Source of the DNA: Balneolaceae bacterium
GTDB lineage: Bacteria > Bacteroidota > Rhodothermia > Balneolales > Balneolaceae
Direction of reading: 5' to 3'
DNA length: 35,037 nt
Assembly (NCBI GenBank): GCA_009711805.1
Contig: VEMX01000077.1
Span: 1 to 35,037, forward strand
The number at the start of each line of letters is the position of its first letter. The stretch's first letter is position 1. The notes under the pieces were generated by a model. It did not search any database, was not told the DNA's origin, and saw only the letters and a list, made by a program, of their open reading frames with translations. Below, one piece after another: positions 5,637 through 27,753 of the stretch. Made by a program: the position numbers and the translations under genes.

Positions 5637-6868
5637 TGACTGAAGCTGTGAATAGCGGGCTTATACCATTAGCTGATAAGAATTATCGTACGCAAGCATT
5701 TTCCATTTCCTCAAAGTTTTCCTGTCTGTTTGTGTTGGTTGTGATGTTGTGTTTCTTTCCCAAAACAACAACAGCTCAGCTTAAAGAGATGGTAGAGGTG
5801 AGCGGTTATGTGAAAGAATTAGGACAACTCTCTGTGGATAACGGTTTCAAGATGTTTCACTACGATAATATTCTGCACCATAGGTTTGAAACCGAATGGA
5901 CATTTTCGGATAAGGTTGAGCTGAATGCAGATCTAAGAAGTCGTTTGCTGAATGGATATTCGGTTCAGAATAGCCCCGGTTTGGGATTATTTTATGAACA
6001 GGACCCAAATTTCGCAGACCTCTCCCGGGTGTGGATAGATGAGGGGAACTCATTATTGCACTCACAGATCGATCGCCTGCACCTGAGCTATTTTAACGGA
6101 CCGCTTGAGGTATATGCCGGGAGGCACCGCATAAACTGGGGCAAAACGCTGGCCTGGAATCCCAATGATCTGTTCAATAACTATGCTTTCCTGGATTTTG
6201 ATTATGAAGAACGCCCCGGTGTGGATGCCATCTCTGCCATCTATAATCTCGATTTTGCGTCAAGTGTTGAAGCCGGGATCAAAGTAGCCGGTTCTTTTGA
6301 AGAGATGGTGATTGCCGGGATGTACCGCACCAACTGGAATAGCTATGACTTCCAGCTGCTGGGCGGGCATTACCTCGATAAAGTAGCGGCCGGTTTTGGA
6401 TGGGCCGGATATATGAAAGATGCTGGTTTTAAAGGCGAGCTGACCTATTTTCATCCCGAAGAAAATTTCTTCAATTCATCGGGTAATTTTTCTTCTACCA
6501 TCGGCTTTGATTATATGTTTAAGAATTCAGTATATGCCCAGGCCGAATTGCTGTACAACGGGGGCTATCAGCAGCAGGCGAATCCATTGGGAAGCCTCAC
6601 CCAGCCTCCCTCGGCTGATAATTTATTTATTGCCAAAACGGGATACCTCCTCAATGCCTCTGTACCCCTGAGCCCCCTCACCGGTATAAGTACTTCCATA
6701 ATGGGCAGCTTCACCCGCTCTATGGTGATTTTCATTCCTCAAGTCAGTTATTCACTCTCCGAAGATATAGACCTTCTCATCCTTTCCCAGCTCCTGAAGG
6801 GGACCGTATTCCGGGACAATGTGCCCACCCCCAACATTCTGTTTGCAAGACTACGGTGGTCGTATTAG
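5633..6868 (+). CDS. Outer-membrane beta-barrel protein of the exporter operon
   Basis: 411 residues with a long N-terminal region and a hydrophobic signal segment (about 28-44) ending TTTAQ. The mature protein is rich in alternating aromatic/polar strands and ends in FARLRWSY, a terminal aromatic residue typical of BAM-inserted barrels. The segment YAGRHRINWGKTLAWNPNDLF resembles the R-x-x-W-G...NP-x-D motif of DUF1302-like barrels. That similarity is by eye and not confirmed. It overlaps the ATPase gene by four bases, so it belongs to the operon. In other bacteria DUF1302-like barrels pair with LolA-fold proteins and RND exporters; here an ABC exporter takes that place. The first 27 residues before the signal segment are odd and the start may be misplaced, but no better ATG exists. 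Barrel call likely; exact family uncertain. Confidence 0.75.
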   Translation: MMTEAVNSGLIPLADKNYRTQAFSISSKFSCLFVLVVMLCFFPKTTTAQLKEMVEVSGYVKELGQLSVDNGFKMFHYDNILHHRFETEWTFSDKVELNADLRSRLLNGYSVQNSPGLGLFYEQDPNFADLSRVWIDEGNSLLHSQIDRLHLSYFNGPLEVYAGRHRINWGKTLAWNPNDLFNNYAFLDFDYEERPGVDAISAIYNLDFASSVEAGIKVAGSFEEMVIAGMYRTNWNSYDFQLLGGHYLDKVAAGFGWAGYMKDAGFKGELTYFHPEENFFNSSGNFSSTIGFDYMFKNSVYAQAELLYNGGYQQQANPLGSLTQPPSADNLFIAKTGYLLNASVPLSPLTGISTSIMGSFTRSMVIFIPQVSYSLSEDIDLLILSQLLKGTVFRDNVPTPNILFARLRWSY

Positions 6869-7224
6869 GGTGGGAGGATATTCTTCGTGGAGATGTCCCA
6901 TTATGAGCTATTCGCGAGGAATCCAAGACTTCAACAAGGATCAGCACAGCATCGACGCGGCGATTTGGGGGAATGTGGCAACGACCTTTCACCAACGAGG
7001 TCATCCAGATCCTGAGGATATTGAAAGGAAATACCACTCATTGCCCTTTATCCGATCTCACCCTGCTGAAAACATCCCTTCGGGAAACCCTCTCTATCCG
7101 CAAGGAGAGGGCTTTCCAATAGTTCCAGAAAATATCAGTGGTGAGTGAATAATCTCTTACTGGTTGACAAGTCCTCTCCTTCAGGGCAGGATTTAGGTGA
7201 GGTAAGGAGCAGCAGAGGAGGCCG
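6869..7224. other. Intergenic region with degenerate repeat material
   Basis: No credible gene; the long + frame at 6819-7148 is a read-through of barrel 3' end and repeat DNA. 7085-7115 forms a hairpin with perfect arms CCCTCTC (7088-7094) and GAGAGGG (7105-7111). The block near 7170-7200 (cctctccttcagggcaggatttaggtgaggt, in part) has the look of the CCCTCTCC/GGTGAGG repeat found between genes in many Bacteroidetes. The hairpin lacks a T-run, so it is a weak terminator candidate at best. Confidence 0.55.
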
Positions 7225-7770
7225 TCACCCCTTCACCATATCATAGATCTTATTAACCGTGCGCCAATTCCGGTTAGTGGCGGATACTTTCAGTTTTCGC
7301 TCTACAAAGGCATTGGAAAAAACTGATTTCACTACTTTATCTTTATGGATTAACACATACAGCTCTTTTCCGGTAAGATGAAATTTTTCCGCATCATTCT
7401 GATGGCTGAGAAGAGATTCTGCTTTTTCCTGGTCTGGTACCTCCGAGAGAAATGTGACATAGAGTTTGGTGGTTTTACTCAGTTCAACATCAGGAAAAGG
7501 GTTGTGTGTTATTACATCTTGGAGTTGAGCCTCATCGCGGATGATAACAGGAACATCAAACTCCAGGGTGTCAAGAATATGTTGCTTTACGGTTGCCGAA
7601 AGCTGTTTGGGATTTTCCTGATCAGTGTCGAAAGCAATATTTCCGCTTTGGATATAGGTTTCAATATTGTGGTATCCCCAGTCTTCGAATAACGACCTAA
7701 GTTTAGCCATCTTGATTTTGCGATGTCCTCCTACGTTAATTCCACGTAATAGAGCTATATATCGGTGCAT
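7225..7770 (-). CDS. DUF1697 domain-containing protein
   Basis: 181 residues, the usual length of the family. The N-terminus shows the hallmark YIALLRGINVGGHRKIKMAKL, followed by WGYHNIETYIQSGNIAFDTD, and the C-terminus has RNWRTVNKIYDMV. DUF1697 proteins are small cytoplasmic alpha/beta proteins of unknown biochemical function. It lies 13 bases downstream of the DUF1801/YdeI gene on the same strand, so the two are likely cotranscribed. Both are frequently found among small accessory genes. No catalytic residues can be assigned. The family call is firm. Confidence 0.92.
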   Translation of the reverse strand: MHRYIALLRGINVGGHRKIKMAKLRSLFEDWGYHNIETYIQSGNIAFDTDQENPKQLSATVKQHILDTLEFDVPVIIRDEAQLQDVITHNPFPDVELSKTTKLYVTFLSEVPDQEKAESLLSHQNDAEKFHLTGKELYVLIHKDKVVKSVFSNAFVERKLKVSATNRNWRTVNKIYDMVKG

Positions 7771-7783
7771 ATGTAGTGCTTAG

Positions 7784-8374
7784 TTATCTGTATTTATCAT
7801 TTAGTCCTACTCCCTTCTGTATCATCGGGATGATTTTCTCTAATCTCCGTTTCTTAGTAGAATCTCGTTTAGCTTCAGCAATATGTTCGGCGTATTCACG
7901 CTGCTTGTATGGAGTAAGGTCTTCAAACTGTGTCTTTAATTCAGGGTCTTCCGACAATATTTTATCCAGCTCAGGGGGAATTTCCAGTTTCTTATTTTTT
8001 TCGGCTTTGAGTTCTTTTCCTGCTTTTTGATTATCGATGGCCTGTTGAATAAAACCCCGAACTTCATCTTTATCAATTTCATCCTGCTTTAGGAACCGAA
8101 GTTGTCTCATGGCCTTGGTTTTACCCTCTTGTGCATTCAGAAGCTTGTTATCAGGGTCGTCCAGGAATACTCCCTGGAAAAACCATATGCCCATATGATT
8201 TTTAAAAGCCGCAAGTCCAACTATATTTTTGTTATCCAATGTATAAACCGGGAGCCCCCATTTGATGGTTTCATCCAGTTCTGTTTCCAGGATTAAATCG
8301 CGGAGCGTAGTCAGTTGGTCTTCCCATTTGGGATGTTTGTTGATATATGCTTCAACAGTTTTCTTATCGTCCAT
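7784..8374 (-). CDS. YdeI/OmdA-type protein with DUF1801 domain
   Basis: 196 residues. The first part (about 5-110) is a DUF1801 domain: HPKWEDQLTTLRDLI, ETIKWGLPVYTLDNKNIVGLAAFKNHMGIWFFQG. The second part (about 130-190) has the OmdA/YdeI pattern IPPELDKILSEDPELKTQFEDLTPYKQREYAEHIAEAKRDSTKKRRLEKII. Proteins of this family are linked by annotation to bacteriocin protection and OmpD association, but the molecular role is not established. It heads a probable two-gene operon with the DUF1697 gene 13 bases downstream. Family assignment is secure; function is not. Confidence 0.9.
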   Translation of the reverse strand: MDDKKTVEAYINKHPKWEDQLTTLRDLILETELDETIKWGLPVYTLDNKNIVGLAAFKNHMGIWFFQGVFLDDPDNKLLNAQEGKTKAMRQLRFLKQDEIDKDEVRGFIQQAIDNQKAGKELKAEKNKKLEIPPELDKILSEDPELKTQFEDLTPYKQREYAEHIAEAKRDSTKKRRLEKIIPMIQKGVGLNDKYR

Positions 8375-8528
8375 GGCTGATGTTCCGTTTGTAAATGTTT
8401 AAATAACTCCGTTAATCATCACAATGGCAGACTGTGACTCCCCGGTATGTTTCTCAATTTACAATTAAGGGAATATATAGAAATGGGAGAATTATTTATA
8501 AATAAGTGGCCAGTCTTACTTAATAAGG

Positions 8529-8693
8529 CTATTCACTTCTTTTGGCTATTACCCAAACAGCGTGGATGATGCCTGGAATATATCCCAGAATGGTAAGAAG
8601 TATATTCAACCAAAAAGCACCGCCTAAGCCTACAGTCATAAATACACCAAGAGGGGGCAGAAATACAGCAAGTAAAATTCGTATCAAATCCAT
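8529..8693 (-). CDS. YqaE/Pmp3 family small membrane protein
   Basis: 54 residues with two transmembrane helices: IRILLAVFLPPLGVFMTVG and FWLNILLTILGYIPGIIHAVWVI. The PPLGVF and LGYIPGIIHA motifs are diagnostic of the Pmp3/YqaE stress-peptide family. An in-frame ATG at 8756 would add 21 residues, but the family begins right before the first helix and the start at 8693 (MDLIRILL) gives a standard length. Pmp3 proteins influence membrane potential and salt or cold tolerance in eukaryotes and plants; the bacterial role is less clear. It lies 87 bases downstream of the dehydrogenase gene on the same strand and may share its transcript. Confidence 0.9.
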   Translation of the reverse strand: MDLIRILLAVFLPPLGVFMTVGLGGAFWLNILLTILGYIPGIIHAVWVIAKRSE

Positions 8694-8780
8694 AACGAAG
8701 GTTTTTAAATGAGAGGACAAGTTTAACACGAAGGAGATGATCTCTTGTTTCACCATATCTGAATGGTTCAGAAATAGGAC

Positions 8781-9704
8781 CTACAAACGGCCTACAGAAC
8801 GTATAGCCTTTTTGAGTATATTTACGGAAGCATGAAGTTTATCATATTCCTTTTTCGAGATGTCAATTTCCAGGACTTCCCGTATTCCGTCCGAAGAGAT
8901 AACAGAGGGGAGCGACAAGGCCACCCGGTCGATACCATATAAGTTTGATATAACAGATGAGACCGTGAGTATGCGATTTTCATCACGCAATAAAAAGGTT
9001 AGAAGTGTAGCTGTTACTAAGCCAATGGCGTGGTTGGTAGCCCCTTTTCGTTTAATGATTTCTGCGGCAGCCATCCTCAACTGATCGGATATTTCATCTT
9101 CATAAGAAGATTTCCATGAATTCCATTTACGGAGTGGGGTTCCCTCAATCATCACATTAGACCATAGTATGACTTCAGAATCTCCATGTTCGCCAATTAC
9201 CTGGGCATGTACTGCTTTGGGATCTATGTGTAATTTCTTCCCGATCATTTCCCGAAGGCGGGATATATCCAGCATGGTTCCGGTACCAATGACACGCTGG
9301 GCAGCCATGCCTGTATATTTTTGATAGTAATAGGTGAGTACGTCAACCGGATTGGAGACTATGATCAGCAGCCCTTTATATCCCTTTAGCTTACAACTTA
9401 TATCCCGGACAATGCGAATGTTTTCTGAAAGCAAATCAAGCCGGCTTTCTCCGGGATTTCCTCCCCGGCCCGCCGTAATAACAATGGCATCACACTGCAG
9501 CATGTCTTCAATATCAGCCGCGTATATATCGGTGGAAGGGAAAAAGGATGAACCATGGTTTAAGTCCATGGCTTCTCCTACAGCCAGTTCTTTATTGATG
9601 TCGTTGACCAACAGTTTCCTGCAGAGTCCCTGGTGCAAAATGGATATGGCTACACTTGATCCAACCCATCCCATTCCAATTATGCCAATTGATTTTGAAG
9701 TCAT
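8781..9704 (-). CDS. L-lactate/L-2-hydroxyacid dehydrogenase (LDH/MDH family), unusual specificity residue
   Basis: 307 residues, full length. NAD-binding GMGWVG at 10-15 and the NAD-adenosine acidic residue D35 in LVNDIN. Catalytic residues are intact: loop arginine R88 (GESR), N118 (VSNP), D146 and R149 (LDISR), H173 in GEHGDSEV, T223 in GAT. The family's main substrate-selecting position, glutamine in lactate dehydrogenases and arginine in malate dehydrogenases, aligns with G82 here (AGRGGNPGESR). That loss of side chain suggests a larger or different 2-oxoacid, so calling it simply lactate dehydrogenase is not justified. The rest of the active-site loop (GESRLDLL) is LDH-like. It appears monocistronic, perhaps with the small membrane gene downstream. 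Function: NADH-dependent reduction of a 2-oxoacid, cytoplasmic. Confidence 0.88.
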   Translation of the reverse strand: MTSKSIGIIGMGWVGSSVAISILHQGLCRKLLVNDINKELAVGEAMDLNHGSSFFPSTDIYAADIEDMLQCDAIVITAGRGGNPGESRLDLLSENIRIVRDISCKLKGYKGLLIIVSNPVDVLTYYYQKYTGMAAQRVIGTGTMLDISRLREMIGKKLHIDPKAVHAQVIGEHGDSEVILWSNVMIEGTPLRKWNSWKSSYEDEISDQLRMAAAEIIKRKGATNHAIGLVTATLLTFLLRDENRILTVSSVISNLYGIDRVALSLPSVISSDGIREVLEIDISKKEYDKLHASVNILKKAIRSVGRL

Positions 9705-9903
9705 TCTTTAATTATTAGTTATAAACAATTACCATACGAATTATAAAGAAAGTAGCCTTCATCTGTGAAGATGTGATTAATAATAGGTAAAGATTTTAAA
9801 GGAGGCTGATTCGTTTAATTCTGGAGTAGGTGGCAATAAACTCTATTGAAGTGCCAGCCTGTATCCATTCAAAGTCTCCTTGTTGGCTGTTGCAGATATC
9901 CCT

Positions 9904-10101
9904 GAGGATGTCTGCCTCAACGCTGATTACATCAGTTGCCATGAATAAGGAGACTGCCACGGGCTGGTTCGTTGGGCTCACCCATCCCTCGCAGATGGAG
10001 GTTCTTATTATTTTCTTTCCCTTAAAACTCAAAACAACGAGTCATTCAGAACGAAGTGATGAATCTTCTTATGATCTACCCCGATTTGTATTCCTTTTTA
10101 G
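9904..10101 (+). repeat. Dispersed intergenic repeat, copy C (modules in changed order)
   Basis: 9904-9996 matches the main block of copy A (tcaacgctgatta, ggagactgccacgggctg, ccctcg-agat). 10041-10101 matches its first block (gtcattcag, gatgaatcttct-atgatct, tttgtatt-cttttta). In copy A the gtcattcag block comes first; here it comes second. That modular shuffle shows the blocks are independent units. Confidence 0.75.
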
Positions 10102-10141
10102 CCATATGGTGCTAACTTTCATTGTGCCATATGGCGCTAAC
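10101..10141 (+). repeat. Tandem 16-bp repeat pair
   Basis: gccatatggtgctaac (10101-10116) and gccatatggcgctaac (10126-10141) differ at one base and are spaced 25 bases apart, start to start. Each contains the near-palindrome GCCATATGG(C). They could be a paired protein-binding site or simply part of the repeat DNA. Confidence 0.6.
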
Positions 10142-10207
10142 CATGGATAGCACAAGTCGGACTGTTTTGTGCAAGCAGATGACAAAAAATTGAAAAGAAA
10201 AATCGGT

Positions 10208-13200
10208 TCAGACGGTTAAGGTGTCCTTAACAAGCTTATCTTGTTCGGCCTGGTGGATTTTCTTTTGTCCGGCGGCGGGAGACGCTGAGGCCTGTCGTCC
10301 GATGTAACGGATACTCTGACCATCTTGCAACAAGTCGGTAAAACGAGGAGCTAAGAAAAACCAGGCTCCCATATTCTTGGGTTCTTCCTGGCACCAGACA
10401 ATATCTTTCACATTTTCGAAATCTTTAAGTTGTTCCACAATAGCATCATCTGCAAAAGGATAGTATTGCTCCAGGCGGGCAATAGCTACATTATCGATGT
10501 TGTTCCGTTCCCGGTATTTAAGCAGGTCATAATATACCTTGCCTGAACAAATCACCAAACGTTGAACTTTAGTAGCATCGGTAATCTTGTTATCCCTGAT
10601 AAATGGATGGAACTCCCCGCTTGCCAGTTCTTCTGTATTGGATGTTGCCATCGGATGACGAAGCAGGCTTTTGGGGGTCATCAGTATAGCAGGTTTATTG
10701 GATACCTGCAGCACCTGCCGGCGAAGCATATGATAATACTGAGCCGGTGTAGTTACATTCAAAATCTGCATGTTATCCTCAGCGCAAAGCTGTAAGAAAC
10801 GCTCCAGGCGGGCAGAGGAGTGTTCCGGTCCCTGGCCTTCATAAGCGTGCGGAAGATTCATTACAAGGGCACATTGTTGCCCCCACTTAGCCCGGCTTGA
10901 CGCTACAAACTGATCGATAATAACCTGGGCTCCGTTGGCGAAATCACCAAACTGAGCTTCCCATATTACCAGGGCGTCCAGATTTTCGGCACTGTATCCG
11001 AATTCGAACCCAAGGGCGGCAAATTCACTTAACAAACTGTTGTGAACATGAAAACGCCCCTGCTCATCCGAAAGGTTATTCAGCGGCACAAAGGTTTGGT
11101 CGGTGTCGGTACCGTGAAGTACGGCATGCCGGTGAGAGAAGGTTCCTCTCTCAACATCCTGCCCGGTTAGGCGGATGGGGGTTCCGCTTTTCAGTAGAGA
11201 GCCAAAGGCTAACAGTTCCGCAAAGCCCCAGTCTATTTTCTTTTCATTCTTATCTACAATTTCTGCCCGTTTGGCAAGCTGTTTGAGCAACTTGGGATTG
11301 GCATCAAAGTCTTTGGGTACCGTATTCAGCTTAACGGCAATGTCTTTGAGCTCCTCTGTTGGATAGGTCGTATCCGGATAGGTGTTCCAATCTTCCTGCT
11401 GTTCTTCGGTACGATCAATGAGGTTGTCGGTGACTTCAAGCTTAGGGGCTTTTTTGGCATCTTCAAATGCTTCCTGCAGCAGCTGATGAAATTCATCAAA
11501 TATCTGCTGTGTTTCTTCTTTGGTGAGCTCTCCATTCTTTACCAGATGCTCGGTATAGATATCGCGCACCGGCGCATGATCACTAATTTCCTTGTACATA
11601 TCCGGTTGGGTAAATGCAGGCTCATCTCCTTCATTATGACCGTGTTTACGATATCCAATGAGGTCGATGATCACATCTTTGCCAAACTTCTGGCGGTAAT
11701 CCAAAGCCGTTTGTATGGCATGAACAGCGGCTTCGGGGCGATCTCCATTTACATGGAAAATAGGGGCCAGAATCATTTTGGCCAGGTCGGATGCATATTC
11801 AGTTGAACGACCATCTTTGGGTAAGGTGGTAAACCCAATCTGGTTGTTAATGATAATATGAACCGTGCCTCCGGTTTTGTAGCCTTCCAATTGCGACATA
11901 TTCAGTGTTTCAGCTACCACACCTTGTCCGGCAAAAGCAGCATCACCGTGCATAAGAACAGGGAGAATACGTTTTTCAGCATCTTCATCTTTACGACTAT
12001 CCTGGAGGGCACGCGAAGCACCTTCTACTACCGGGTTAACCGCTTCGAGATGGCTGGGATTGGGCATCAACTGAAGTTCAATTTCAGTACCATTGGCGGC
12101 TTTGTGTTTTCCTTTGGCTCCCAGGTGATATTTTACGTCCCCAGAACCTTGTATGGAATCAGGGTCTATATTTCCTTCAAATTCTGCAAACACCCGGTGA
12201 TAAGGCTTGTTCATAATGTTCACCAGGATGTTTAAACGTCCCCGGTGAGCCATCCCTACAAATATTTTTTCAATATTATGAGTGCCTGCTTTTTCAAGCA
12301 TGAAGTGAATCATCGGAATGAGGGTATCTGCCCCTTCAAGCGAAAATCTTTTGTGGCCTATATATTTTTTATGGAGGAACTCCTCGAAGGCCATGGCCTG
12401 GTTCAGCTTGTGCAGAATTTCCCGTTTGTCATCTTTCGTTAAATTTGGCTTGTTGGTGGATGACTCCATAGTCTCCCGCAGCCACTTTCGTTCGTTCAGG
12501 TCAAGCAGGTGTTTGTATTCTGCTCCTATATGTCCACAGTAGGTATCGCGCAGCAAGCGGATAATCTCCCGGAGGGGGGCTTTGTCTTTACCTCCCAATC
12601 CACCGCAGTAAAACTCGCGGTCTAAGTCCCACAAACTGAGGCCATAATACTCGAGGTCGAGTTCGGGGTTATGTCGCGGTTGGGTTGCCAGAGGATTAAG
12701 GTCTGCCAGTACATGCCCGCGCATGCGGTACATATTGATAATACGCCAAACACTGATGGCACGCCGGTCTTGCTCGAGGGTATTGGCGCCTCCTGAAAAA
12801 GGTCCGGAATATTTATCGTGCCCATAGGGAAGGGGTTCGTACGAAATTTCCAGGTCTGTAAATATCTGATCATAGAAATCTTCTTGTCCGCTGAGCAGGT
12901 CATCGATTTTCTTGAGAAACATGCCTGATTCGGCGCCCTGGATAACCCGATGGTCGTAGGTTGAAGTAACGGTCATCACTTTGCTGACACCTAACTGGTT
13001 CAGCACATCCTTCGACATAGCCCGGTATTCGGCAGGATAATCAATAGCACCAGTGGCAATAATAGTTCCCTGGGTTTGCATCAGCCGGGGAACCGACGAT
13101 ACCGTACCAATTGTACCGGGATTGGTAATACTGATGGTTGTGTCCTGGAAGTCTTCGATCTGAAGGTTTCCGTTGCGGGCTTTGTCAACAAGTTCTGCAA

Positions 13201-21141: not shown

Positions 21142-24021
21142 GTGATTAAACAGATTTTCATATTGGTTGTACTGGTATTCCTGGGAACGGAGGTTTTAGC
21201 CCAACGGTACCCATTCCGAAACTATTCTATTGAGGAGGGGCTAAGTGAATCGGCTGTACATGCCCTAACCCAGGATGACGAGGGATATCTTTGGTTAGGT
21301 ACCGGTTATGGACTGAATCGATTTAATGGATTAAGTTTTGATAATTATTTTGAAGAGAATGGGCTGAATAACAGTATCATTCGTGTTCTGTATAAGGATA
21401 GTCGTGGTGTTATTTGGATAGGTACTGATGAAGGGGTTAATTTTTGGAAAGACGATAGTATACAAACCAGTCCTGAATATGATGTTCTTTCCAACTCATC
21501 CATTATCAGTGCACATGAAGATCGGGTAGGTGATATGTGGTTCGGTACGGATGGAGATGGTGTATGGCATTTCAGTAATGAGGGGGAATTAATACGGCAA
21601 TATTCTATCACAAATGGGATGATTGGCAATTACATCAATGATATAGGGGAAGACCCTAATGGAGGCCTCTGGTTTGCAACCGATAAGGGATTGACAACAT
21701 TGAGAGATGGAAATTTCAGAAATTATACTAAAGCAAATGGGTACCCCTTTACCAGGATTAGTGATATTGCCATTGAATGGAATGGGGTGGTTTGGATAGG
21801 CACCAATGAAGGGTTAGTACGCATGGAGGATGATTCATTGCAAACCTTTACTACCTCAGAAGGGATGGCAGGCAACAAAGTACAAACTCTTACCTTAGAT
21901 ATTGATGGGGGGATATGGATTAGTACCAGAAGTGGAGTAAGCTACTTTGATGGAAATGGATTTGAAAATTATACCACGGAATCGGGTCTCACAGATAATG
22001 TTATTGTCTCATCATTTATAGACAGAGAAGGGAATATGTGGTTTGGTTCTTTTGGAGGAGGTGTGAGCCTTTTCCTGGGAAATTACATTGAAAATTTCAC
22101 CAGTGAACAGGGGCTTCCCAACGATATGGTAACTTCCATTACCAGTTCAAGGCAGGAAAAAATGTGGATTGGAATGTATGGGGGAGGAATAACCACTTTA
22201 CAAGAGGGAGTGTTTGTTGATCCGCTTAAGAATTCCGGTATCCCGGATAATCAGGTGCTGGATGTGTATACAGACTCTCAGGAACGTGTATGGGTTGGGA
22301 TGTTGGAGGGATTAGCACTGATAGAAGATGGAGAGATTAGAACTTTTAGTGAGAGAGAATTTCCATACAGAAATGTAAGAGACATTTTAGAGACTTCATC
22401 AGGAGATTTTTGGATCAGTACCTATGTTAATGGTATTGTTAGGTACGATGGGGAAGAATTTGTTCTTTTTGATGAAGAAAAGGGGTTGGCCGATAACACA
22501 GTACTGGGAACAGTTGAAGGAAGAGACGGTTCAATTTGGATTGCTACTTATGGCGGGGTAAGCCAATTTTATAACGGGGAATTTGAGAATTATTCAATTC
22601 AGGAAGGACTGCCCAATAATGCTGTAATGTACCTGATGAAAGACAGAGATGGAACAATCTGGGCTGCTACATCCGGTGGTATTGCCTGGTATGATGGTGC
22701 CGGCTTTCAAAGTATAACTACAGAAGATGGGCTGCCAGATCGCGTTTGTTATTTTATTAAGCAAAGCAAAGACGGATATTATTGGATAGGTACTACCAAT
22801 GGGGTCGTACGCTTCCGCTCCGACTTATATTTTAGTGAGAACCCATCCATACGGGGACAAGCTTTTCAAATGATTACCAAAGATCAGGGTCTGGTAGCTA
22901 ATGAGTTGAATTTAGGTGCGGTTCATGAAGACAATGAAGGTCATTTATGGTTTGGTACAGTGGGAGGAATGAGTCATTTTTACCCAAGTAGATATGAAGG
23001 AAATCCGGTTCCTCCTGAGGTCCACATATTAGAAATTCAGGCTTCAGGTCGAAATTATGGTTATACAAATGACCTGGTACTTTCTGATAAAGAGAATTTT
23101 ATAGAGATTAGCTTCTTTGGGATCAATTTTAAAGCTCCCAATCAGGTGATATATGAATACAGGATGAGCGAAATTGACCCCGGTTGGCAAGAGACTACAG
23201 ACCGTGTTGCCAGATATCCTTCATTGCCACCGGGAGAGTATACCTTTCAGGTGCATGCCCGCAACACCAATGGAACCTGGAGCCAGAAGATAGACTCTTT
23301 GTCGCTCACAATTAAAGCTCCTTTTTGGATGCAATGGTGGTTCATAACTATAATAGCTCTTATTGCCGTTGGTATTATACTTCTTTTCTATAACTACTAC
23401 AGGGTGCGAAAGATGGTTGATATTGAAAGGATGAGAGTTCGGATTGCCAGTGATCTGCATGATGATGTAGGGGCGAGCCTGACAGAAATAGCCCTGCAAT
23501 CAGATTTCCTGCAGGCCGGTAACATAAACTCAGATTTCAAAAAATCACTCCACCAGATAGGCAAGCAATGCCGTAAAATCGTATCAAGCCTGGACGATAT
23601 CGTTTGGTCTATAGATGCTCGAAACGACACGCTGGGAGACCTGACTGACCGTATGCAGGATTATATCTTAAATACGCTTGAATCAAAACAGATGAATGTA
23701 CAGTATGACTTCGAAGACCTTAAAATGAACAACAAACTTCCCGTACCAGCAAAAGAGAATCTGTACCTGATCTTTAAAGAAGCTGTGAACAATATTGCAA
23801 AGTACTCGAACGGCGATAAGGTGAAGATTCAAATGCTAAACAGGAACGGAAAATTCAAGCTAACCATTTTTGATAACGGAACAACTGGAAAGGGAAAGAA
23901 AAAAACAGGTCACGGTTTGCGTAACATGAAAATGCGAGCAAATCGGATTAATGCAGATATTAATTTTGAAACGGAAGACGGATTTAAGATTATCCTTGAA
24001 GGACGTATTAATGTAAACTAG
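21142..24021 (+). CDS. Sensor histidine kinase with beta-propeller, Y_Y_Y and HisKA_3 domains
   Basis: 959 residues from a GTG start. Signal peptide (about 1-20, ending VLAQ), then roughly 13-14 two-component propeller repeats (about 25-620) recognisable by recurrent W-I/F-G-T (YLWLGTGYGLNRFNG, VIWIGTDEGV, MWFGTDGDGV). A Y_Y_Y domain follows (about 645-725), a transmembrane helix (about 728-752), then a HisKA_3 dimerisation helix with phospho-acceptor H773 in ASDLHDDVGASL, and a HATPase_c domain with N-box FKEAVNNIAKYS (near 883) and G-box DNGTTGKGKKK-TGHGLRNM. The periplasmic propeller senses a ligand and the kinase phosphorylates the NarL-type regulator 18 bases downstream. Unlike SusR-like hybrids it has no receiver or AraC domain in the same chain. 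Ligand unknown. Confidence 0.93.
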   Translation: MIKQIFILVVLVFLGTEVLAQRYPFRNYSIEEGLSESAVHALTQDDEGYLWLGTGYGLNRFNGLSFDNYFEENGLNNSIIRVLYKDSRGVIWIGTDEGVNFWKDDSIQTSPEYDVLSNSSIISAHEDRVGDMWFGTDGDGVWHFSNEGELIRQYSITNGMIGNYINDIGEDPNGGLWFATDKGLTTLRDGNFRNYTKANGYPFTRISDIAIEWNGVVWIGTNEGLVRMEDDSLQTFTTSEGMAGNKVQTLTLDIDGGIWISTRSGVSYFDGNGFENYTTESGLTDNVIVSSFIDREGNMWFGSFGGGVSLFLGNYIENFTSEQGLPNDMVTSITSSRQEKMWIGMYGGGITTLQEGVFVDPLKNSGIPDNQVLDVYTDSQERVWVGMLEGLALIEDGEIRTFSEREFPYRNVRDILETSSGDFWISTYVNGIVRYDGEEFVLFDEEKGLADNTVLGTVEGRDGSIWIATYGGVSQFYNGEFENYSIQEGLPNNAVMYLMKDRDGTIWAATSGGIAWYDGAGFQSITTEDGLPDRVCYFIKQSKDGYYWIGTTNGVVRFRSDLYFSENPSIRGQAFQMITKDQGLVANELNLGAVHEDNEGHLWFGTVGGMSHFYPSRYEGNPVPPEVHILEIQASGRNYGYTNDLVLSDKENFIEISFFGINFKAPNQVIYEYRMSEIDPGWQETTDRVARYPSLPPGEYTFQVHARNTNGTWSQKIDSLSLTIKAPFWMQWWFITIIALIAVGIILLFYNYYRVRKMVDIERMRVRIASDLHDDVGASLTEIALQSDFLQAGNINSDFKKSLHQIGKQCRKIVSSLDDIVWSIDARNDTLGDLTDRMQDYILNTLESKQMNVQYDFEDLKMNNKLPVPAKENLYLIFKEAVNNIAKYSNGDKVKIQMLNRNGKFKLTIFDNGTTGKGKKKTGHGLRNMKMRANRINADINFETEDGFKIILEGRINVN

Positions 24022-24038: not shown

Positions 24039-24671
24039 ATGGCTATTGTAGGAATTGTGGAAGACAACATAAAAATAAGAGACTTAATACAGCGCTATCT
24101 TGATATGCAGGAAGACATGAGCTGTCCGGTAGCAGTTGATTCGGTAGAGGAGATGCTGGAGCATCTCGAAGAACATCAGAAACCGAAGGTGATTTTAATG
24201 GATATCCAGCTCCCGGGTATGTCCGGGATCAAGGGGATGGAAGTGATAAAATCAAAATATCCGGAGATAGAGATCATTATGCTCACGGTTTATCATGATT
24301 CCCACAAAATTTTCGATTCATTGAAAGCCGGCGCTTCCGGGTACCTCTTAAAACATACCTCCCTTCCGGAGATCAAAGAATCTATAGATAATCTTCTGCA
24401 AGGGGGAGCGCCGATGTCTCCGCAAATAGCGCGGAAGGTGATCTCACATTTTAATGAGGAAACTCCCAAGAAGAATAAAAAAAGCATGCTGACCGACCGT
24501 GAACAGGATATTGTAAATGGATTGGTAGATGGGCTGAGCTATAAAATGATTGCCGATCGCTATGGCATCTCAATAGATACGGTTCGGGCGCATATTCGAA
24601 ATATTTATAAAAAGCTCCATGTAAATTCTAAGGCCGAGGTAATTGCTAAATCCCTACGTGGAGAAATATAA
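24039..24671 (+). CDS. NarL/LuxR-type response regulator
   Basis: 210 residues. Receiver domain 1-120 with acidic pocket E8-D9, phospho-acceptor D55 in LMDIQLPG, conserved Thr in MLTVYHD and Lys in YLLKHTS. C-terminal LuxR helix-turn-helix (about 148-208): LTDREQDIVNGLVDGLSYKMIADRYGISIDTVRAHIRNIYKKLHV. It begins 18 bases after the sensor kinase stop, so the two form a cognate two-component pair. Likely targets include the adjacent lipoprotein and barrel genes, but that is only positional inference. Confidence 0.95.
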   Translation: MAIVGIVEDNIKIRDLIQRYLDMQEDMSCPVAVDSVEEMLEHLEEHQKPKVILMDIQLPGMSGIKGMEVIKSKYPEIEIIMLTVYHDSHKIFDSLKAGASGYLLKHTSLPEIKESIDNLLQGGAPMSPQIARKVISHFNEETPKKNKKSMLTDREQDIVNGLVDGLSYKMIADRYGISIDTVRAHIRNIYKKLHVNSKAEVIAKSLRGEI

Positions 24672-24763
24672 ATATAATGCTAACATGATCATGTGATTGA
24701 AAAGGGAAGGTCATGAAGTGATTTTAATAGTAGAAATTTAACATTCCCACAATGGAGATGGAT

Positions 24764-26188
24764 ATGAGTATCAATAAAACCGTGTATCGAACATCAGCCC
24801 TGCTCTTAATACTTTTCTTTTTTACGGGTTGTTATACTCAGTTTCAATCTACAAATCAATTTCCTTTAGATGACCGCTATTCAGACTATTATGCCTGGGA
24901 TGGATTTGAAGAAGGAGAAGAATACACCGATGGCTATGCTTCTGAGTCGTACAATAAAGAAGTGAATTCCATTATGGCACAGCGGGAATTGGAAGAATCG
25001 GGAGTGTATTATAAAGATTATGAGACGGAACAGTGGTATTCCCAGAATTATGTAGATCAAACCTATTGGGAAGGGTATGATGATGGCTATTATGATGGAT
25101 ATGACGATGCAATCCTTGAGTACGATCACTATAGGAACAGATACTATTACTCTCCACAAGTATATATATATCCAGATCAGTTGACATATAATCTCCACGG
25201 TCCTTATAACTGGAGACACAGATTATGGGCATATCGGTCAATGGGAGGGTTCTTCCATTTCAATGGTATGTATGTTGGGGCTTATTTCTGCAATTCTATA
25301 GGATATGGTTACTATGGTTTTGGTCGTTGGCGCGCACTCCAGGGGTATTATTCTCATCAAGCTTATTGGAATGGTTTCTATGATGGGGGTATTTATGCCT
25401 ATAATGATTACTACAAATATGTACCCGTTTCTAAACGCTCCAATGCTGAGCTATATAAGAAAAGCTACAATGGCGGCGAACTTTATACGCGAACACGAGG
25501 TAATTCCAATTCAGGAACAAGAGTGCGTAATTCAGGAAACAGTACCCGTACCAGAAGTCGTTCCATAACCAGCTCGGGTCGGTCACGTACCGCCGGGTCT
25601 ACATCAGGAACAAGAGTAAGAAGTAGTTCGAGCAAAAGGAGTAGTAGTGGTTCTTCTGTAGGCCGAAGCAGAGGCTCTTCTTCCAGTTCTTCGAGAGGGA
25701 ACAGAAAAAGCGGAAACCAAAGTAAACGATCAGGGAATAATGATCAGGGATTAAGCAGCAGTAAGTATAGAAGTTACAGTTCTACCGGTTCTTCTGTAAA
25801 CAGAAGAAATACCGAGAATAGGGTTAGTACGAAACGAACCTACACAATTCCTTCAAAGCGAAGCTATAACTCTTTTATCACTCCTAAAAGAAATAGTTTT
25901 TCGAGTTCAACCAAACGCAGGGTTACTGTTCCGAACAGAATAAAAACTTTTTCGATTTCAAAAAGTTCTGCCCAAAAACGAAATATTTTTCAAAACCGGT
26001 CATCGTCACGGATTAAAAATGTAACGACTTCAAAGAAATCCCGCAGTAGTAGTATAAAAGTACGCTCATCAGGTAGTTCTCGTTCTTCATCCAGTATTTC
26101 CCGTTCAAAAAGTTCTTCTTCTAAAAGTAGAAGTAGCCGTAGTAGCGGGAGTAGCTCAAGTAAAAGAAAAAGGGGTGGGAATAGATAA
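24764..26188 (+). CDS. Lipoprotein with acidic Tyr-rich half and Ser/Arg-rich basic tail, function unknown
   Basis: 474 residues from the ATG at 24764; ATGs at 24752 and 24758 are alternatives, but MSINKTVYRTSALLLILF gives a cleaner signal peptide. A lipobox FFFTGC makes it a lipoprotein. The front half (to about residue 225) is rich in Tyr, Asp, Glu, Gly: WEGYDDGYYDGYDDAILEY, GYGYYGFGRWRALQGYYS. From about residue 235 to the end the protein is dominated by Ser, Arg, Lys, Asn and Thr with short repeats such as RSSSSKRSSSGSS and SRSSRSSGSSSSKRKR, and is strongly basic. I do not recognise a domain. The pattern recalls low-complexity Bacteroidetes lipoproteins often misannotated by similarity. 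It lies between a two-component pair and a FadL-like barrel, 74 bases before the latter. A surface or nucleic-acid/polyanion-binding role is conceivable but unproven. Confidence 0.8.
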   Translation: MSINKTVYRTSALLLILFFFTGCYTQFQSTNQFPLDDRYSDYYAWDGFEEGEEYTDGYASESYNKEVNSIMAQRELEESGVYYKDYETEQWYSQNYVDQTYWEGYDDGYYDGYDDAILEYDHYRNRYYYSPQVYIYPDQLTYNLHGPYNWRHRLWAYRSMGGFFHFNGMYVGAYFCNSIGYGYYGFGRWRALQGYYSHQAYWNGFYDGGIYAYNDYYKYVPVSKRSNAELYKKSYNGGELYTRTRGNSNSGTRVRNSGNSTRTRSRSITSSGRSRTAGSTSGTRVRSSSSKRSSSGSSVGRSRGSSSSSSRGNRKSGNQSKRSGNNDQGLSSSKYRSYSSTGSSVNRRNTENRVSTKRTYTIPSKRSYNSFITPKRNSFSSSTKRRVTVPNRIKTFSISKSSAQKRNIFQNRSSSRIKNVTTSKKSRSSSIKVRSSGSSRSSSSISRSKSSSSKSRSSRSSGSSSSKRKRGGNR

Positions 26189-26262: not shown

Positions 26263-27753
26263 ATGAAGAAAATTACTTTTCTTTTAATACCATTTCTGTT
26301 TCTGTGCCAGATGAGCCTTTGGGCTCAGGAGGGAAATAATCCATATGGTTATTTGCATAAAGCACTTCAGTATTCTTCCCAAAATTTAAATGGGGATGCA
26401 GGTGCTGGTTTGTTCCCTTCTGTTGCTTCAGCCCATGGATATGGCAGCTTTATCGATAATCCTGCAAGCATGGCTTTACTTGATAAAAGTTCTGTGAATT
26501 TTAGCTTCTATAACAACCAGGTGGAACATCATAATATGTACCTGGGGAACGCCCTTGTAGCGGATGACAGTGCTACACAGATAGGAAGTATTGGTTTTGT
26601 ATATCAAATGCCGGTTGAAAGGGGGAGCATGGTAATAGGTGCAGGTTATAACCAGCTGATCCACCAGTTGGGAAGAACCAGAATTAAAGGTCGTAATTCG
26701 GAAAACACTATTACGGATTCCTTTAAATTTCGATTTAGCGATCATCATAATATTGCATTTAATACTTATGCTATTGACTGGGGAGATGCAGATGGAACTT
26801 ACACAGAGTCTATATTTCGCATTGGATTTGACAGATACCCCGGAATTACACAAGAAGCTGAAATAACCTATAACACAGATATAGGAGAATATTCTGCTTT
26901 TGTGGGAACAGAATTTAAAAAAGGAATATTTGTAGGGATTTCATTTGGTCATACAGTTGGTACTTATAGTTACAGCCGAAATTTTTACGAGATCGATACA
27001 GAGAATGATTATAACTATAATTTCATCCCTTCGGATAGCCCCGGCGACAGTACAGATATAGATAATATTTGGTTGTATGACAAGATGAAGGCTGAAGTAT
27101 GGGGCTATAATGTAAGGGGAGGACTCATTTATCAAATCACTCCAAATATTAATATTGGTATTAGTTACCTGGCACCTTATGCGTTAAAAGCCCGGGAAAG
27201 CTATAGTGCATTAATTAGAACTGAGTTGGATGATGGTTCAACTCCTTTTCAGGATGAGAAAGAAAGTGATGAAGATTTGATATACAAGGTTAAGAACCCT
27301 GGACAATTAAAGATTGGTGTGACAGCAAATAATATAGGTCCTTTCTCCGTCTCAGTTTCTGGCGAATATATTGACTACTCAGAATTAAAATTAATAACCG
27401 GACTCAAGTTTGACAATGAGAACGACTTTATCGAGGATAATTATAAAGAGGTTTTTAATATAAAAACCGGGGTCAAGGTTGCATTTACCGACATAACAAA
27501 ATTTAAAGCCGGCTATGCTTACCTCCCTGGTAAAAGTAAAAAGTTTGCGGCCAATAGAAATGTTTTTTTTGGTGGGATCAGTTCTAAGCTGAGTTCAGAC
27601 ATTATATTGGAGGTAAGCGGTCAATATTCAATGTGGGATGACAGGTCTGTTGCCTACGATTACGAAAATTTTTCAGGAGATTTATTTGAACAGACAATAA
27701 GTAAGCAATCCAATAGTTTGTTTATACAGACAGGGGTAAAGTTTTTGTTTTAA
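26263..27753 (+). CDS. FadL/OmpP1-like outer-membrane beta-barrel protein
   Basis: 496 residues. Signal peptide (about 1-21, ending LWAQ). The mature start ALQYSSQNLNGDAGAGLFPSVASAHGYGSFIDNPASMALL resembles the N-terminal hatch of FadL/OmpP1 (TodX) proteins, where N-P-A-x-L/M is conserved. The rest is alternating strands, including FKAGYAYLPGKSK and ending FIQTGVKFLF with a terminal phenylalanine. FadL-family channels let hydrophobic compounds cross the outer membrane. It follows the Ser/Arg-rich lipoprotein by 74 bases with no terminator between, so cotranscription is likely. A perfect hairpin terminator lies about 48 bases after its stop. Barrel certain; substrate unknown. Confidence 0.8.
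   Translation: MKKITFLLIPFLFLCQMSLWAQEGNNPYGYLHKALQYSSQNLNGDAGAGLFPSVASAHGYGSFIDNPASMALLDKSSVNFSFYNNQVEHHNMYLGNALVADDSATQIGSIGFVYQMPVERGSMVIGAGYNQLIHQLGRTRIKGRNSENTITDSFKFRFSDHHNIAFNTYAIDWGDADGTYTESIFRIGFDRYPGITQEAEITYNTDIGEYSAFVGTEFKKGIFVGISFGHTVGTYSYSRNFYEIDTENDYNYNFIPSDSPGDSTDIDNIWLYDKMKAEVWGYNVRGGLIYQITPNINIGISYLAPYALKARESYSALIRTELDDGSTPFQDEKESDEDLIYKVKNPGQLKIGVTANNIGPFSVSVSGEYIDYSELKLITGLKFDNENDFIEDNYKEVFNIKTGVKVAFTDITKFKAGYAYLPGKSKKFAANRNVFFGGISSKLSSDIILEVSGQYSMWDDRSVAYDYENFSGDLFEQTISKQSNSLFIQTGVKFLF

Follow-up and report, generated by a model that had tools for sequence, protein, structure and literature searches.

A phylum-wide Bacteroidota lipoprotein family with a polycationic Arg/Ser-rich tail, paired with a FadL-subfamily barrel gene

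Introduction

Two structures from 2025 placed a FadL-family barrel together with a lipoprotein at the core of outer-membrane assembly in the Bacteroidota. The barrel, BamG, and the lipoprotein, BamH, are core BAM subunits, and the conserved N-terminus of BamH is bound to BamG (PMC12611786, PMC12578637). Another lipoprotein that acts within a lipoprotein/barrel complex is RcsF, which senses LPS via its positively charged residues (PMC4942254).

The locus described here is found in a Balneolaceae bacterium, on a stretch of 35,037 nucleotides (contig VEMX01000077.1) that is referred to as the window. It encodes a second, separate FadL-lipoprotein pair, which is also widely kept. The lipoprotein has no Pfam family and ends in an Arg/Ser-rich polycation in which the composition is conserved and the order of the residues is not. 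The first-pass annotation had recognised no described function for this protein and could not show that it is part of a phylum-wide pair. The open papers searched yielded no description of this pair. The lipoproteins, with an acidic/aromatic head and a polycationic tail, form a real and selected family that is tied to one FadL subfamily throughout the phylum.

Architecture of the lipoprotein

Read from its first ATG, the open reading frame extends over positions 24752-26188 of the forward strand and encodes 478 residues. The in-frame ATG at 24764, which lies behind the one at 24752, is preferred as the start because it is preceded at six bases by GGAG and because the alignment of homologues begins there. 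The product has a signal peptide and a lipobox with its Cys (FFTGC-YTQ), as expected for a lipoprotein. The first reading of the gene, as that of a lipoprotein with an acidic and Tyr-rich repeat head and an S/R/K tail ending in KRKRGGNR, was borne out in each of these points. The features of the locus, together with genes found beside the pair in distant families, are collected in Table 1.

Table 1. Features of the window and of selected loci elsewhere in the phylum
Feature	Position	Strand	Remarks
Sensor kinase, Reg_prop/Y_Y_Y propeller and HisKA_3	21142..24021	+	
NarL-type response regulator	24039..24671	+	conserved immediately upstream in two Balneolales families
RS-tailed lipoprotein gene	24764..26188	+	474 aa from preferred ATG 24764; 53 homologues in the order
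Lipoprotein signal peptide, last residues FFTG	24764..24829	+	
Lipidated Cys and invariant CYTQ, mature N-terminus	24830..24841	+	Cys codon 24830-24832
Small helical acidic module (YYKDYE..WY)	24950..25078	+	AlphaFold helices; conserved columns among relatives
GYDDGYYDGYDD repeat	25073..25108	+	counterpart in relatives: conserved GYxxGYxxGY
Tyr/Trp/His/Phe-rich linker, low model confidence	25109..25489	+	sequence, relatives, AlphaFold
Arg/Ser/Lys-rich low-complexity tail, 232 aa, C-terminal KRKRGGNR	25490..26185	+	
FadL-family outer-membrane barrel, conserved partner gene	26263..27753	+	Pfam, AlphaFold fold matches, adjacency
Barrel N-terminal tail, mature Gln22 to NPA motif	26326..26460	+	longer than in transport FadLs
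CxxCH genes before the barrel	L128:7056-7682, L130:3539-4102, L142:5825-6505, L155:4361-5200, L150:5444-6361		
YjbH-like protein of about 257 residues	L128:4893-5666, L130:5493-6281, L141:4632-5411		

The mature head carries a net charge of -15, with 44 Tyr and 31 Asp plus Glu residues, and the tail a net charge of +56, or +58 under the boundary rule applied to the 53 homologues of the order. The tail had been described as 240 Ser/Arg/Lys-rich residues of low complexity; the low complexity holds, but the length is about 232 residues and Lys makes only a minor contribution (19 K against 39 R). Ser, Arg and Lys account for 60% of the tail compared to 17% of the other proteins of the window, and the richest 230-residue stretch in any of those has 23% (for the tail, a binomial log10 p of about -48).

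The window lipoprotein has no match to Pfam up to an E-value of 1, and its sole match to NCBIfam, FliH_bacil at E 0.47, is at chance level. A profile of the lipoprotein heads found no match among the sequences of solved structures, and the distant members included in the family search gave weak matches below cut-off only, for instance to TASL, DUF4834 and Yae1_N. The AlphaFold model has a mean pLDDT of 47.6, and the part of the mature protein modelled with moderate confidence is restricted to helices at residues 63-78, 86-94 and 98-105. Hence the lipoprotein is predicted to be mostly unfolded, low AlphaFold confidence serving as a proxy for disorder only.

Conservation of the head and selection on the tail

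A first protein search with the lipoprotein yielded hits in 17 of the 58 related genomes, and the full-length relatives have the same layout of lipobox, YYKDYE-like element, acidic head rich in Tyr and basic tail rich in R/S. Among the 53 homologues within the order, head charges span -26 to +9 and tail charges +10 to +57. A strongly acidic head is typical of the close relatives of the window protein, whereas in other Balneolales families the head is weakly acidic or not acidic at all. The extreme charge polarity that had been emphasised at first is real and conserved. A search for homologues of matching charge polarity, which the first-pass annotation had proposed, revealed that the tail is never lost in Balneolales.

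The mature N-terminus is highly conserved. The residues C, Y, T and Q are each invariant across 25 order-wide sequences, and [GAS]CYTQ is found in 107 of the 111 paired members despite strong divergence over the remainder of the protein. In several families outside the class the lipobox is altered, for example to CGSYQN or CSTSKL. At three loci (L285, L286 and L288) the homologous position is occupied by an R/S-tailed exported protein in which no lipobox Cys was found, and as judged from these sequences some families may do without lipidation.

The tails of relatives cannot be aligned with one another. They are long and variable in length (median 231 residues among paired members), Arg provides a median of 91% of their basic residues over the 111 pairs, and in 99 of 110 members the C-terminus is basic, at least two of the final eight residues being K/R. 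Many tails elsewhere in the class and phylum end in RRR, GRR or similar. In the window tail Ser is encoded by 44 TCN and 37 AGY codons and Arg by 20 CGN and 19 AGR codons; as both families of codons are used about equally, the composition is maintained at the level of the amino acids and not by a DNA repeat. The tail is therefore selected at the amino-acid level.

Two artefactual origins of the tail can be ruled out. Expansion of a tandem repeat is excluded by this mixture of codons and by TRF, which detected one 41-base array only. A frameshift or misassembly, either of which would have undone the first reading, is excluded by the 8 and 27 stops in forward frames +1 and +2, and the homologues share the tail architecture without internal stops.

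Pairing with the FadL-like barrel gene

The FadL-like barrel is present in 57 of the 58 relatives, including all 45 near-complete ones, and the gene directly upstream of it nearly always encodes a tailed lipoprotein, even where similarity at the protein level is undetectable. Such a gene precedes the barrel in 86 of 86 testable Balneolales loci. A profile built from heads across the order also matches in families elsewhere in the class and phylum, and loci outside the order likewise encode GCYTQ lipoproteins with R/S tails ahead of a FadL. Elsewhere in the phylum the tailed gene is directly upstream of the barrel in at least 58 of 70 loci; this is a lower bound, as among the 12 that failed the automatic upstream test L139, L141, L144 and L157 visibly have a GCYT-type lipoprotein. 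For comparison, the same tail criterion selects 44 of 1445 background open reading frames. The adjacency to a FadL-like gene, whose conservation the first-pass annotation had singled out for checking, is thus nearly universal.

The barrel profile detected the barrel in 172 of the 247 genomes of the phylum sample, covering 107 of its 121 genera. This profile gave no match in a family (f27) whose genomes are small, at about 2-2.8 Mb. The pair is also duplicated as a unit. Locus L020 contains it twice, as a tandem of lipoprotein and barrel (6782-12214), and in L184 (5681-10203) and L188 (5427-9893) the barrel is preceded by one lipoprotein and followed by another, which runs towards the end of the locus. 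In these three duplications the extra lipoprotein has a shorter and less charged tail.

The surroundings of the pair differ in the distant families. Many of their loci (L275-L294) are arranged back to back with what looks, from its sequence, like a gene for prolyl-tRNA synthetase, and the pair may have had its ancestral position there. In distant families the barrel is also immediately preceded by a second small gene for an exported product, which has a CxxCH (haem-type) motif, an R/S-rich C-terminus of its own and mostly a lipobox. Upstream of the pair, distant families encode a protein of about 257 residues that is conserved and weakly YjbH-like (E 0.0003, below cut-off).

In the window's own family the pair follows a sensor kinase and a response regulator. 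The order kinase, response regulator, RS lipoprotein, FadL was seen in the 15 family loci first examined. With one exception, L206, the order regulator, lipoprotein, barrel is found in 54 named Balneolales loci with sufficient room, which were gathered by searching with the response regulator and span Gracilimonas, Balneola, Fodinibius/Aliifodinibius, Rhodohalobacter and other Balneolaceae. In L206 (Rhodohalobacter halophilus) the kinase and regulator are present and the pair does not adjoin them. The two genes may control the pair in this family. Because the pair lacks them as neighbours in the order's other families, as well as in the rest of the phylum, the core unit is the lipoprotein and the barrel.

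Charge relations and membrane side

The tail is net positive and the barrel net negative in all 111 pairs. The two charges show a modest correlation (r -0.51 raw; -0.27 by independent contrasts, permutation p 0.004), and the transport FadLs of the same organisms are likewise acidic, with charges of -16 to -35. If the usual FadL topology, as read from the model, holds for the window barrel, most of its acidic excess lies in extracellular loops.

Surface lipoproteins of the Bacteroidota are recognised by at least two acidic residues among the six that follow the Cys, a criterion that was applied to BamH-K (PMC12578637). This export signal was found in none of the 110 members, a result in conflict with a BamH-like position on the surface. 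The surface exposure entertained in the first-pass annotation is therefore doubtful on sequence grounds: either the tail is periplasmic or the group has another export signal.

Proposed role and alternative explanations

The favoured explanation, with a probability of roughly 0.6, is that the lipoprotein is a dedicated outer-membrane partner of the adjoining FadL-subfamily barrel, with which it makes up the phylum-wide pair. The two proteins may well form a physical complex, gene pairing alone being no proof of contact. After lipidation, the invariant CYTQ terminus would dock on the barrel in the manner of the conserved lipidated N-terminus of BamH on BamG. Such docking is a tentative suggestion made by analogy, and it cannot be universal given the changed lipobox outside the class and the three loci without the lipobox Cys. 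The CYTQ terminus would be followed by the short acidic helical module and then by the aromatic linker, from which the disordered Arg/Ser tail would contact polyanions close to the barrel through electrostatic interactions that are multivalent and sequence-tolerant. The phosphates of LPS or periplasmic anionic polymers are candidates for these polyanions, as possibly are the barrel's own acidic loops. This role of the tail in binding polyanions is plausible, at somewhat less than even odds. Were the complex to form, an unrecognised outer-membrane component would be added for a large phylum, along with a clear example from bacteria of a disordered tail that functions through its charge.

A bolder proposal, that a disordered polycationic lipoprotein on a FadL-subfamily barrel organises or senses the LPS leaflet electrostatically and that this module is widespread in Bacteroidota outside a few families, is rather speculative and probably goes too far. 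It would make the pair a counterpart of BamG-BamH in which the disordered Arg/Ser tail replaces the folded domains.

A periplasmic tail that associates with the sacculus would suit the missing export signal, the large and variable tail lengths and the basic C-terminus. However, the export rule was derived in other classes and may not hold for Balneolales, and a tail in this position leaves the need for this particular FadL subfamily unexplained, which makes such an arrangement unlikely. If the tail were instead a low-complexity spacer of drifting composition, its charge being irrelevant, the failure of tails to align between relatives would be accounted for. Hardly any credence can be given to such a spacer in view of a charge that is positive in every pair, the preference for Arg over Lys, the use of both Ser and Arg codon families and the retention of a basic C-terminus.

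The genes upstream of the pair raise the prospect of an RcsF-like sensor, whereby the lipoprotein threads through or rests on the barrel, its basic tail reads the charge of LPS, and a signal passes to the adjoining kinase and regulator. These genes stand immediately ahead of the pair in almost every Balneolaceae locus, and there is the precedent of positive RcsF residues that sense LPS in a barrel complex (PMC4942254). Such a sensor has a slim chance only, as the pair occurs without these two genes both in the order's other families and elsewhere in the phylum, and in L206 it does not stand beside them. The two genes might also be linked by co-expression only, with a free polyanion-binding or adhesive envelope lipoprotein and an independent barrel channel for hydrophobic compounds. 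Polycationic tails generally bind polyanions, and the best sequence-level scores of the barrel profile are with TbuX/TodX/FadL, both of which are in keeping with independent functions. Mere co-expression is nevertheless hard to square with phylum-wide pairing amid changing outer neighbours and with duplication as a unit, and is considered improbable.

Comparison with known systems

The tail resembles the RS domains of eukaryotic SR proteins in its Arg/Ser-rich low complexity, that is, in composition only. The protein is an exported bacterial lipoprotein with mixed RS/SR dipeptides interspersed with G, N, T and K, and no RNA-recognition domain of the kind that accompanies the RS domain in SR proteins, nor any other domain, is matched in Pfam up to E 1. 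The likeness to RS domains remarked upon in the first-pass annotation therefore stands for composition and falls for kinship of domains, and the idea that the tail is a phosphorylation target found no support. With RcsF and its partners OmpA/OmpC/OmpF the window pair shares the pairing of lipoprotein with barrel and a basic unstructured segment, and two-component genes adjoin it. No relation in sequence to RcsF is seen, however, and whereas the C-terminus of RcsF is a signalling domain, that of the window lipoprotein is an unstructured tail.

The partner barrel matches Pfam Toluene_X (PF03349) with 37.1 bits against a cut-off of 29.7, and its AlphaFold model (mean pLDDT 87.7) gives Z-scores of 28-32 to FadL, TodX and BamG chains. 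The FadL-type fold of the model and the NPA hatch, both of which are shared with the transport proteins FadL, TodX and TbuX, assign the barrel to the FadL superfamily. In comparison to these transporters its Pfam score is weak and its N-terminal tail is longer. Alignments with the model begin at residue 24 for three BamG chains and at residues 35-45 for FadL/TodX chains. In the sampled Balneolaceae 44 residues separate the mature Gln from NPA, and in the remaining readable sequences 39; read from alignments, this distance is about 33 in E. coli FadL, about 33-35 in FadL/TodX and 43 in B. thetaiotaomicron BamG. The barrel thus has the BamG-type feature of an N-tail about 10 residues longer than that of a transport FadL. 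A BamG would also be expected to match BamG chains at least as well as transport FadLs, but the barrel profile matches TbuX/TodX/FadL at E 2e-15 and PgBamG at E 4e-4. The strong Toluene_X FadL, where present, is a separate gene and in several cases lies beside a different lipoprotein. In L246, L247 and L248 its neighbour is a lipoprotein-like gene whose sequence suggests an SGNH esterase, which makes this a third type of FadL-lipoprotein neighbourhood.

That the window pair is itself BamG-BamH is ruled out, as a true BamG and a BamH-like gene are found together elsewhere in the genome. The BamG gene (G000:C20:17322-18545) matches the order's BamG at E 6.6e-51, and the latter, whose gene adjoins a lipoprotein gene, matches the three solved BamG chains with phmmer at E 7e-24 to 2e-23. 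The adjoining lipoprotein gene (G000:C20:18623-19786, locus L263) is BamH-like by position alone, its product having no match among solved chains. Both genes are present in all 19 relatives searched.

BamH is characterised by a folded carbohydrate-binding-like domain and an arch structure. The low-confidence model of the window lipoprotein shows no folded domain, only three short mature helices, and the protein is without the export signal; the window barrel, in turn, is longer and more acidic than BamG. The two systems nonetheless have in common a FadL-family barrel with an extended N-tail and an outer-membrane lipoprotein with a highly conserved N-terminus, and in Balneolales both place the lipoprotein gene upstream of the barrel gene. 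By analogy, the window pair may work in a similar way to BamG-BamH, although it is distinct from it.
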